Assembly (NCBI GenBank): GCA_021442155.1
Contig: CM038215.1
Location: forward strand, 7,712,976-7,776,975
Length of the DNA stretch: 64,000 bases
Direction: 5' to 3'
Origin: Cymbidium sinense
Lineage: Eukaryota; Streptophyta; Magnoliopsida; Asparagales; Orchidaceae
Made by a program: the position numbers and the translations under genes. Shown here piece after piece: positions 21,279 through 59,750 of this stretch; the first letter of the stretch is position 1, and the number at the start of each line of letters is the position of its first letter. The notes beneath the pieces were generated by a model. It saw nothing but the letters and a program-made list of their open reading frames with translations, searched no databases and was not told the origin of the DNA.

Positions 21279-21560
21279 AAACCTTAAATAAAATAAAAAC
21301 TAAATAAATACCTAAACCTAAAAAATAACCCTAAAAATAAAACCTAAAAATAAATAAAAAATTAAGCCTAAACCCTAAACTAAAAAAAACCTAAACCTAA
21401 AATAAAAAAATAAAATAAACCTAAACCTAACCCTAAACCTAACCCTAAACCTAACCCTAAACCCCAAACCCTTAATCAAAACCTAAAGTAACTAAATAAA
21501 TTAAAAGATAAACCTAAACCCTAAAACCTAATAAACCTAAACTTAAACCTAAACCTTAAG
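21279..21560. repeat. Telomere-like array, short block before gene fragment 1
   Basis: Begins at ACAAAACC|TTAAATAAAATAAAA directly at the gag edge and contains AAACCTA and CCCTAAA words with the C-rich strand on +. The same gag-to-array junction recurs at about 25200, so gag and array were copied together. Confidence 0.85.
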
Positions 21561-21932
21561 AATGGGCAGAACCTTGACGATAGTAACATCAAAAACTAAG
21601 ATAGATCCCGGTGGAGAGAGTAAGATTATCACAATGGTGGTGGGGAATCTAGACCGGTGGATATGGAGGTGGTGGTAAAAAAAAATGAAAATAACTAAAA
21701 GAAGAGATATATGATGATGGATCCCACTAAGGCCGGGTGGCTCTGAACGGAGAAATTGAAGAATGACCGATCATCTACGCTTATGGAACTCTGTAGTAGA
21801 GATGGTTCTAGGGTTTTGATTTATTCTATCGCTCATATCTCTATCATCGCCCTTAAATACTTGGTGTGTTACATGTTGATGAAATCGAAAAGAAGAAATG
21901 TTGAATTTGAATTTGTTCTCTATTAAAAAAAA
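21561..21932 (+). pseudogene. Glycine-rich RNA-binding protein fragment 1 (last exon + 3'UTR)
   Basis: Starts right after AAG with AATGGGCAGAACCTTGACGA, reading NGQNLD, the end of the RRM in GRP7-like proteins. It continues into a short glycine-rich stretch (GGYGGGG at about 21655-21675) and a 3'UTR ending TTTGTTCTCTATT followed by an A-run (21923-21933). Compared with fragment 6 (58876) it is strongly decayed: the VNEAQS-like region is lost and parts of the glycine tail are replaced by A-runs (near 21675). GRP7-like proteins bind RNA in nucleus and cytoplasm and act in cold and circadian responses. This piece has no exon 1, no complete RRM and no open frame. Confidence 0.8.
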
Positions 21933-23356
21933 ACAAAAACCCTAAACCCTAAACTAAAACCTAAGCCCTAAACATAAAACCTAAACCTTAAACCATAAAC
22001 ACTAAAACCTAAACCATAAAACCCTAAACCCCAAACTCTAAACCTTAAAACCTAAACCATAAACCCTAAACCCTAAAAATCTAAAAACTTAAACCTAAAC
22101 TAAATAAAACATAAAAATAAAATAAAATAAAAATCCTAAACCAAAATAAAACAATAAAATAAAATAAAATAAAAACATAAAGTAAAATAAATAAACTAAA
22201 CTAAATAAAAATTAAAAATAAACCTAAATAAAAAATTTAAATAAACTAAAATTAAAAATATAAAATAAATAAACTAAATAAACCTAAACCTACTAGTTTA
22301 CTTAATTTTAAAAAACCCTAAATCCTAAACCCTAAACCCTAAACCCTTAATCCTAAACCTAAAACCTATAACCCTAAATCCTAAACCCTAAACCTTAAAC
22401 CCTAAAAAACCCTAAACCCTAAACTAACCAAACCCTAAACCCTAAACCCTAAAAGCATAAATCCAAAACCCTAAACCACAAACCCTAAACTCTAAACCCT
22501 AAATCCTAAACCATAAACCCTAAACCCTAAACTTAAATAAACTAAACCTAAAACTCTAAACCTAAACCCTAAAAAATAAACCCTAAACTAAACTTAAACC
22601 CTAAACCTAAACTTAAACAATTAAAATAACCTTAAACCTAAAACTTAAACCTTAAACTAAACTTAAAAATAGAAAATAAAGCCATAAACTAAACCTAAAT
22701 AACCCTAAAACTAAAACTAACCTAAACCTAAACTAAAATAAACTACAAACCTAAACTATAAACCCTAAACCTAAAATAAAACCCAAATAAACCTAAATAA
22801 TCCCTAAATCTCATAAAAATAAACCTAAACCTAAACACTAAACCCTAAACCCGAACCTTAAATCATAAAACCCTAAAACCCTAAAACCCTAAACCATAAA
22901 ACCCTAAACCCTAAACCCTAAACTGAAGCCTAAACTCAAAATCATAAACCTAAACCTAAACCTAAAAAATAAACTAAAATAAAAAACATAAACTAAAATA
23001 AATAAACCTAAAATAAATAAACTAAAATAAATAAAAATAAAAATAAATATAGATAAAAGTATAAAATAAAAACCCCTAAACCCTAAATCCTAAACCCTAA
23101 ACCCTAAACTCTAAACTCTAAACCCTAAAACTAACCCTAAACTCTAAACCCTATACTTACAACACTAAACCTACAACCCTAAACCCTAAACCCTAAACCC
23201 TAAACTCTAAACCCTAAACCATAACCCTAAACCCTAAACCCTAAAACCATAAACTTGAAACCCTAAACCCTAAACCCTAAACCCTAAACCCTAAATCCTA
23301 AACTTTAACCCTAAACCCTAAACCCTAAAGCCCAAATCCTAACCCTAAACCCTAAG
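21933..23356. repeat. Telomere-like array with ordered A-rich blocks
   Basis: Degenerate CCCTAAA (C-rich on +) alternates with AAATAAA/AACCTAA DNA. One anchor lies at 22281-22315 (CTACTAGTTTACTTAATTTT). Short perfect runs of the plant telomere unit occur near 23170-23210 and 23260-23290. The array ends at CCCTAAGTTTAAGTTTATTTC near 23356. Confidence 0.9.
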
Positions 23357-23639
23357 TTTAAGTTTATTTCATTGTAGGGTGATGCATTTATCTTTCAAGA
23401 TAGTATATTATAACTCAATATTGTAGCCGATCACCTCAAAAATTATCCTCTAAGCATGGTACCCATAAACTAAAATAAACACCAAAGGCCTTGCCTTGTT
23501 CATTAAATTCTCTCAACATCATCCTAGTTTGGAGATGTATATAGGCAAGGGTTCATAGACATAATGTTGAATAAAACTAACTCTAAAATCTACCAACATC
23601 CACTATAATGTAAAAAACTTGTGCTCCTAACTTCACTGA
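23357..23639. other. Unassigned island between array and gag copy 2
   Basis: About 280 bases of non-telomeric DNA that I cannot match elsewhere in the window. No useful reading frame. It abuts the homologous start of gag copy 2. Confidence 0.5.
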
Positions 23640-58200: not shown

Positions 58201-58875
58201 AAAAATAAATAAAAAATAAAACTTAAATCCTAAACTAAAAATAAACTAAACTTAAAATAAAAATAAAATAAATAAAATAAAATATACCTAAACCTAAACT
58301 AAAATAAATAAAACTTAACCTAAGCTTAAACCTTGACTAAATAAAATAAAATAAACTAAAAATAAACCTAAACCTAAGCTAAAAAATAAAACCCAAAAAA
58401 TAAACCTATAATAAAAACCTAAAACCTAAACCTAAAAATAAAAAATAAAACCTAAACCTAAAGAATAAAATAAAAATTAAACTCAACTAGAAAATAAACC
58501 TAAACTTAAAAAAATGCTAAAAAAATAAAAACTAAAACAAAAAACCTAAAATAAATAAACTAAATAAAATAAAAATAAAAAATAAACCTAAATAAAATAA
58601 ACTCAAATAAACAAAAACTAAACTAAATAAACCTAAACCTACCAATTTATTTAATTTAAATTAATAAAAACCCTAAACCCTAAACCCTAAACACTAAAAT
58701 GAACCCTAAACCCTAAACCCTAAAACACTAAACTCTAAAATATAGACCCTAAACCCTAATCCCTAAACCTTAAACCTTAAAAGCCTAAACCCTAAACCTT
58801 AAACTCTAAGCCCTAAAACTTATAACCATAAATCCTAAACCCTAAACTAACCCTAAACTAACCCTAAACCTTAAG
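55285..58875. repeat. Higher-order telomere-like array, second block
   Basis: Same composition, same strand and same order as the central array. Anchors are at 56261-56310, 56441-56480, 57401-57443 and 58622-58665. The landmark AAAACTAAATGTAAAATAAA is at 55684 and 56926 (577 and 475 bases before their anchors), with a decayed form near 58130. CCCTAAA-rich parts: 55300-55450, 56515-56690, 57440-57900, 58665-58875. The last runs into AACCTTAAG at gene fragment 6. Confidence 0.85.
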
Positions 58876-59148
58876 AATGTGAAGAACCTTGACGGTAGTA
58901 ACATCACCGTCAACTAGGCTCAGTCTAAATCTTATAGTGGAGGAGAAGGCGGAGGTAGCTGTTATCGCAGTGGTGGTGGGGGATCTAGAGGTGCTGGTGG
59001 ATATGGAGGTGGTGGTCAAAGTAGTGGTAATTATGGAGGCAAGAAGAGCGATGGGGGTTACAGCCATGGTTATGGCGGAGGCAGAGATTTGGGATATGAC
59101 AGCGGATCCTACTACACAAGAGGTCGGGGTGGTTCTGATGGGAACTAG
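58876..59148 (+). pseudogene. Glycine-rich RNA-binding protein fragment 6, near-intact last exon
   Basis: From AATGTGAAGAACCTTGACGG the frame reads N-V-K-NLDGSNITVN, then TAG (58912-58914) at the position of the Glu in the family's VNEAQS motif, then AQSKSYSGGEGGG. An unbroken glycine-rich tail follows (SGGGGGSRGAGGYGGGGQSS, later GGYSHGYGGGRD and SYYTRGRGG) to a natural stop at 59146-59148. Apart from the one TAG the exon stays in frame for 91 codons including stops, the best of the copies. It is the RRM end plus Gly/Tyr/Arg tail of a GRP7-like RNA-binding protein. Exon 1 with RNP2/RNP1 is absent. Long open frames in other phases over this exon are shadows. Confidence 0.88.
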
Positions 59149-59358
59149 AGAAATTGAAGAACGACCAAACTGCTGCTTATTGAACTGTGCCATTGCAGTA
59201 GAGATGGTTCTACTTATGTAGGGTTTTTAATTTGCTCTATGGGTGCTCATTTTTTATCTATCTCATCTCTTATGTCTTAGAAACCTTGGGGTGCTACTTG
59301 GTTGATGAAATCAAAAAGAAGAAATGTTGAATCTAAACTTATTCTCTGTTAAAAAAAA
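59149..59358 (+). pseudogene. 3'UTR of gene fragment 6
   Basis: AGAAATTGAAGAACGACCAA to CTTATTCTCTGTTAAAAAAAA. It is colinear with the tails of fragments 1, 3 and 4, including the words GGGTTTTTAATTTGCTCTAT and GCTACTTGGTTGATGAAATC. It ends in an 8-base A-run that passes straight into CCTTGAACCCTAAACCC. The constant 3' edge at the A-run in every copy resembles a polyadenylation point. Confidence 0.75.
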
Positions 59359-59750
59359 CCTTGAACCCTAAACCCTAAACCCTAAATTAAAACTTGAACC
59401 CTAAACCTAAAGCCTAAAGCCTAAACCCAAAACCCTAAACCCTAAACCCTTAACACAAAATCCTAAATCCTACAATCCCTAAACCCTAAACACTAAACCC
59501 CTAAACCCTAAACCCTAAACCTTAAACCATAAACTCTATACCCTAAACCCTAAACCTTAAACCTAAAACCCTAAACCATAAATTCTAAATCCTAAATCAT
59601 AAACCCTAAAACTCTATACCCTAAACCCTAAAACCTACAACCTTAAACCCTAAACCCTAAACCCTAAACTAACCCTAAACACTAAAACCTATATTAACAC
59701 TAAACCCTAAACTAACCCTAATACCTAACCCTAAACCCTAATCACAAAAC
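59359..59750. repeat. Telomere-like array, right-hand end
   Basis: CCCTAAA variants with C-rich strand on +, without the A-rich blocks or anchors. The last clear words are CCCTAATCACAAAACC near 59745. Confidence 0.9.

Follow-up and report, generated by a model that had tools for sequence, protein, structure and literature searches.

A gene end of a glycine-rich RNA-binding protein recurs within interstitial telomere-like arrays of the Cymbidium sinense genome

Introduction

Blocks of telomere-type DNA are very abundant and varied in the pericentromeric regions of Cycas, according to the excerpt of PMC9827991 on which we draw, and circular-DNA amplification appears in the consulted portion of PMC8621592 as one of the causes proposed for the interstitial telomeric repeats (ITRs) of seed plants. 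In Lathyrus sativus, satellites grew from tandem repeats inside long terminal repeat (LTR) retrotransposons, as stated in the excerpt of PMC7004042 used here. In this work, we describe a stretch of 64,000 nucleotides from the orchid Cymbidium sinense (GenBank assembly GCA_021442155.1, contig CM038215.1), referred to below as the window, in which copies of one host gene end lie inside CCCTAAA-like arrays. The copies carry the coding end and the 3' untranslated region (3'UTR) of a glycine-rich RNA-binding protein (GRP) and are called GRP pieces throughout.

Two kinds of elements with an A-tail are also relevant here. TRAS and SART of the silkworm are long interspersed nuclear elements (LINEs) that are specific for telomere repeats, and their A-tail is joined to the telomeric repeats in a fixed polarity. 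LINEs also make processed pseudogenes, which are marked by 5' truncation, an A-tail, and a target-site duplication. An earlier note, made from the letters of the stretch, had listed six GRP pieces and proposed that a gene end was caught once in telomere-like DNA, the composite being amplified afterwards.

Results

The window covers bases 7,712,976-7,776,975 of contig C2 (306 Mb) in an assembly of 3.53 Gb with 2174 contigs, of which C1-C20 measure 73-377 Mb each and C21-C25 less than 200 kb, indicating about 20 chromosomes. In the kilobase bins of its arrays (21-42 kb and 55-59 kb), CCCTAAA was plentiful and TTTAGGG had a count of 0. The arrays lie at 7.7 Mb of the 306-Mb contig, away from chromosome ends, and hence qualify as ITRs; random points inside C1, C2, C3, and C6 also fell in arrays. 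Alignment and a profile search located all six GRP pieces where the earlier note had placed them, within CCCTAAA-like arrays and on the + strand (Table 1). The four long pieces, for which it had claimed a start at the same base, all begin at model position 1, and the common A-run end, which it had reported for five of the six, was recovered for all six, which reach model positions 480 to 482, with an interrupted A-run in the copy at 55213. The copy at 27928 stands outside the long class and is one of a recurring set of short tails that directly adjoin an A-rich block; similar short tails were found ∼42 kb away in locus L011 (one) and in locus L023 (two). The repeat part of the fifth copy can be aligned, as far as position 55222, with 3501-4061 and 16061-16615. 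The long pieces of the window are mostly only 70-75% alike and are therefore old.

We then built a consensus from 60 aligned rows and translated it as one frame, writing the inner stop as X. The frame has 94 codons, final stop counted, with a single inner stop read by eye from the alignment, and it leads from the end of an RNA recognition motif (RRM) through a glycine-rich tail ending in ...SDGNWRN to a normal stop, a 3'UTR of ∼200 bases, and the A-run. Compared with proteins, the consensus reached a best E value of 3.5e-12, with 161 of 7997 scored candidates at an E of ≤0.01; many named plant GRPs were among the 120 matches listed, and a Nyssa protein was 66% identical over the whole query. 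The match to the end of the solved GRP RRM chain 4c7q_A was weak (E of 0.011), and only about the last 18 RRM residues aligned, the RRM being incomplete in the piece. When one degraded copy of the window was the sole query, no protein matched at an E of ≤0.001. TAG was the commonest state at the inner stop codon (22/60 rows, with 10 gapped), which suggests that the master copy was probably dead already. Exon columns (divergence of 0.168) diverged at least as much as UTR columns (0.135), so there is no sign of coding constraint. A coding function of the GRP piece was ruled out by the stop, by frameshifts in copies, and by this divergence, and no other function is indicated.

We extended the profile search to 234 kb, made up of a 124-kb region around the window and 110 kb taken from the first 386 kb of C1, and obtained 41 GRP copies. 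Their starts fell at model position 1-2 in 21/41 cases and within 10 bases in 27/41, and 36/41 copies reached the 3' end at the A-run. All but one (40 copies) were on the + strand, the single minus-strand copy lying in TTTAGGG DNA, and CCCTAA-like DNA followed within ∼60 bases on the same strand after 36/36 of the 3' ends. The copies met at sampled points likewise had the same orientation relative to the array (5/5). From the 40 best whole-genome hits, we fetched 20 copies (all 12 outside C1 and C2 and the best 8 of the 27 on C1), coming from eight chromosomes and one small contig; drawn from best-scoring hits, this sample leans to well-kept copies. Of these, 19/20 start at the same base, mostly with TAAG|AATGG, and 20/20 end at the A-run. 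The proposal that the gene end was caught once and then amplified is thus favored, one left junction and one right edge being common to copies on many chromosomes.

The family itself stands, and it is genome-wide and not local to the 38 kb in which the earlier note had described it. The 20-mer at the start of the piece gave, with ≤2 mismatches, 27,112 matches in the assembly (13,754 forward and 13,358 reverse), and the same 20-mer read backwards gave 0; together with the 41 profile copies, this rules out a chance resemblance. This 20-mer finds 10 copies in the 234 kb versus 41 by profile, which scales to roughly 110,000 in all, a figure that includes fragments and whose scaling rests on 10 matches. 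We also drew 80 random points of 400 bases (60 on C1-C13 and 20 on C1-C20): 10/80 were in arrays, as read by eye, 4/80 contained a GRP piece, and the mean array share by composition was 0.102. Two points flagged by composition (L059 and L086) were dropped from the array count, as they had hardly any CCTAAA or TTTAGG, and were kept in the mean. Among twenty further points, which were not random, two were in arrays, one of them with GRP. Matches to (CCCTAAA)3 in the assembly numbered 206,468 + 186,744, chromosome ends included. The longest contig, C1 (377 Mb), appeared enriched, with 5/14 random points in arrays versus 5/66 on the others; 27/40 of the best GRP hits were also located there.

The median divergence of copies from the consensus was 0.15, and the median pairwise divergence was 0.23 (630 pairs). 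A tree of 36 copies was near-star, with 5/33 inner branches starred, a median end branch of 0.2, and a bootstrap that had not settled, and locus labels clustered weakly on it (12 changes versus 16.8 after shuffling, as low in 2/200). This pattern looks like a burst of dispersal followed by decay, to which local duplication contributed in places such as L019. The term satellite, which the earlier note had used, fits loosely: the units are irregular, the arrays are interleaved with retrotransposons, and the tree of copies is near-star.

Over the 234 kb, the order within a unit was M, CCCTAAA block, GRP, CCCTAAA block, A-rich block, and again M, where M is a 27-base motif of the ACCTACYRGTTTACTTAATTTTAAAAA type. 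Unit length varies, many units have no GRP, and arrays are interrupted; the head-to-tail order recurs within arrays. Allowing up to 7/27 mismatches, we found 16 copies of M in the window, from 22288 to 58663 and on the + strand. The DNA to the left of M is A-rich (mean C content of 0.09 in the two preceding 50-base bins), and the CCCTAAA block to its right is C-rich (0.32-0.33, from 50 to 200 bases from the M start). M often ends in an A-run leading into CCCTAAA DNA, as GRP and LINE ends do, and may itself derive from another A-tailed insertion, of which a short part is left.

Evaluation of the flanks revealed a non-canonical motif on the right side, which, at ≤6 mismatches, was present at 21/36 of the 3' ends and 8 times elsewhere in the 234 kb, with 3/8 of the latter following short GRP tails not recovered by the profile. 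On the left side, a flank of the type CTAACCCTAAACC.TAAG is often paired with CTTAAACCC on the right, and a flank of the type ATAAACCTAAACCTAAACC.TAAG is paired in L151 with ACCAAAAACCC; both types have one truncation point, and their contrast can be seen by comparing L151 and L152 with L141-L148. At the immediate edges, 13 and 14 of 40 left sides read CCTTAAG and CCCTAAG, respectively, and 25 and 17 of 57 right sides read CCTTAA or CTTAAA and CCCTAA, respectively, with a background share of CCTTAA against CCCTAA of 0.169. The copies are related, so P values of such edge tests mean little. CCTTAA exceeds its background share at both edges and may mark a target-site duplication.

L1-type LINEs were found in the C1 loci, where 7/7 of their 3' ends abut arrays and the A-tail leads into the C-rich CCCTAAA strand; 2/7 of these A-tails lead straight into the GRP junction. 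The LINE at L018/L019 has CCCTAAGAATGG on both sides. A long copy in L015 is flanked by array to its left and right and matched DUF4283 (E of 6.2e-7) and RVT_1 (E of 5.9e-4, below its cut-off). These observations support the occurrence of LINE integration into these arrays.

The arrays are bordered by other repeats. Repeat X has three copies around the window, each directly left of an array, and none in the C1 loci, and we conclude that local segments and their arrays were probably duplicated too; by eye, it looks like a gag-like fragment on the minus strand. The degenerate Ty3/gypsy-type element that separates arrays 2 and 3 contains an RT_RNaseH match at 48101-48508 (E of 6.1e-16), and self-alignment of the window identified related stretches at 575-17249 and 60074-64000. 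The element shows a 12.6-kb period, and the segments 575-4636 and 13204-17193, 79-86% alike in pieces, could be LTRs of ∼4 kb. The domain search matched no family at 7881-8387.

Table 1. Positions of GRP pieces, arrays, M motifs, and neighboring repeats (window coordinates unless a locus is named)
Feature	Position	Strand	Description or basis
GRP copy 1	21561..21934	+	long class with internal deletions; profile, model 1-482
GRP copy 2	27928..27973	+	short-tail class, last ∼45 bases of 3'UTR and A-run; model 436-481
GRP copy 3	39551..39975	+	long class; model 1-482
GRP copy 4	42179..42644	+	long class, close to the right edge of the array; model 1-482
GRP copy 5	55213..55288	+	5' remnant joined to gypsy-type repeat; model 405-480
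GRP copy 6	58876..59360	+	best score in the window, 467.9 bits; model 1-482
First telomere-like array	21271..23351	+	C-rich strand, holds GRP copy 1; CCCTAAA counts; low-G A-rich segments 21271-21563 and 21904-23351
Main telomere-like array	25074..42682	+	irregular units: M, CCCTAAA block, (GRP), CCCTAAA block, A-rich block
Third telomere-like array	55257..59770	+	
M starts, first eight	22288, 28906, 31055, 31676, 32383, 33659, 34083, 35095	+	
M starts, last eight	36642, 37069, 40877, 41971, 56276, 56454, 57416, 58637	+	
Repeat X	19310..21280	not assigned	adjoins left edge of first array
Repeat X, second copy	23633 to about 25190		adjoins main array
Repeat X, third copy	L014:3121-5052		adjoins an array
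Degenerate Ty3/gypsy-type element	42687..55222	-	between arrays 2 and 3; self-alignment
L1-type LINE copies or 3' ends	L015:∼325-8048; L021:35-168; L021:8256-8809; L025:4724-4922		
L1-type LINE copies or 3' ends, continued	L017:8194-8685; L018:6697-7359; L018:9273 to L019:399		

Discussion

We consider it fairly probable that a single GRP retrocopy, made by a LINE, landed in degenerate telomere-like DNA and that the resulting composite was amplified and dispersed and is now decaying. In such a scenario, L1-type LINE machinery would have reverse transcribed a GRP messenger RNA, starting at the poly(A) tail, in a target-primed reaction at a nick in telomere-like DNA that was already degenerate. 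The primer would have been the TTT end of the G-rich strand, which would force the orientation sense-A(n)-CCCTAAA. The 5' end of the cDNA would have been cut short at ...G|AATGGG in one event only, and the telomere-like units carrying the piece would then have multiplied, perhaps by unequal exchange, circles, or transposition, and been scattered across the chromosomes, reaching a copy number of the order of 1e5; deletions, local duplications, and insertions of LINEs would have accompanied the spread. The A-run at the poly(A) site, the fixed 5' cut, and CCTTAA at both edges together point to a retrocopy.

Several observations weigh against this scenario. The putative target-site duplication is hard to distinguish from array sequence, and CCCTAAG stands at 14/40 of the left edges. 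A start exactly at an exon edge would need coincidence for a truncated retrocopy. The seven LINE 3' ends come from loci chosen for CCCTAAA hits, and the 124 kb around the window yielded no LINE copy. As to the flanks, the count for the right motif depends on strictness (23 at GRP ends versus 27 elsewhere at ≤8 mismatches), and three left-flank motifs gave 9 versus 49, 5 versus 5, and 6 versus 2 (GRP versus elsewhere), so the left side carries less weight. In overall identity, the flanks did not surpass other stretches of array (0.719 versus 0.740 on the right and 0.672 versus 0.732 on the left), a test that does not separate GRP flanks because telomere-like DNA aligns to itself. Finally, the left flanks and the right edges each fall into two types.

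A rival to this scenario is capture of genomic DNA, in which recombination or repair would have joined the terminal exon and 3' end of a GRP gene, bordered on one side by a telomere-like intron end, to telomere-like DNA, followed by amplification and with no RNA step. Plant GRP genes have one intron in the RRM, and the left junction TAAG|AATGG ends in AG, like an intron end; that the start is an exon edge was a candidate of the earlier note only and may be correct. However, TAAG is a poor splice acceptor, and the junction is equally readable as that of a retrocopy cut inside the preceding codon. The right edge, which is the A-run after the 3'UTR in 36/41 local and 20/20 fetched copies, and the CCTTAA at both edges also speak against DNA capture, which we regard as unlikely; it is more probable that the captured piece came from RNA. 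The composite as a whole might instead be a mobile element, that is, a non-autonomous retroelement or transposon with a telomere-like body, spread by transposition. Copies on both strands of many chromosomes and a near-star tree that mixes contigs, with its burst-like dispersal, would agree with this idea, but the units lie head to tail inside arrays, locus labels do cluster, if weakly (12 changes versus 16.8 shuffled), and repeat X, the sole border repeat searched, flanks three arrays near the window and has no copy in the C1 loci. We hold this explanation to be improbable.

The LINEs present in the arrays with the same polarity would fit a series of independent GRP retrocopies, each homed by LINE machinery to telomere-like DNA. 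Independent insertions are not expected to have a truncation point and flanks in common, and we found one truncation point in 19/20 fetched copies, a flank that recurs at many ends, and a stop codon in common. We therefore rejected this possibility as very improbable, and a single capture is favored. It is even harder to believe in an assembly artifact. Such arrays are hard to assemble, but the copies recur at random points on several contigs, and a median pairwise difference of 23% is too much for duplicated reads.

A bolder extension of the single-retrocopy scenario, which we put forward as a rather doubtful one, is that an L1-type LINE lineage homes to telomere-like DNA, priming from TTT ends of the TTTAGGG strand and repeatedly planting host mRNA and LINE ends in one polarity. 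Arrays amounting to about a tenth of the genome would have been seeded and lengthened in this way, and the GRP composite would be the most successful product. The fixed polarity of the A-tail versus the C-rich strand makes a preference of plant LINEs for telomere-type DNA directly testable. The GRP piece also provides a sequence tag for tracing the multiplication of interstitial telomere-like arrays, which is hard without landmarks, and it is an example of a gene end turned into an ingredient of a major genome repeat. Our literature search, which covered open-licence papers, found no description of a telomere-like repeat family with a recurring host mRNA end.

Among known systems, the arrays of C. 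sinense resemble the ITRs of seed plants, as portrayed in the excerpts of PMC8621592 and PMC9827991, in being telomere-type DNA inside chromosomes, and they differ from the ITRs in those excerpts in their composite makeup, in which a gene-end piece, the M motif, and an A-rich block recur together. With the Lathyrus sativus satellites, to the extent that these are covered by the excerpt of PMC7004042, they have in common that satellite DNA is tied to retroelements and spread through the genome; unlike in L. sativus, what was captured is the end of a host mRNA, and LTR-type elements are located only beside the arrays. The likeness to TRAS and SART lies in an A-tail that leads into telomere-type repeats, a fixed polarity, and insertion inside arrays, whereas the LINE found here is an L1-type plant element with DUF4283 and the arrays are degenerate and interstitial, not chromosome ends. 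Like processed pseudogenes, the GRP piece has a 5' truncation, an A-tail, and a possible target-site duplication; unlike them, it has been amplified to the order of 1e5 copies inside a repeat.

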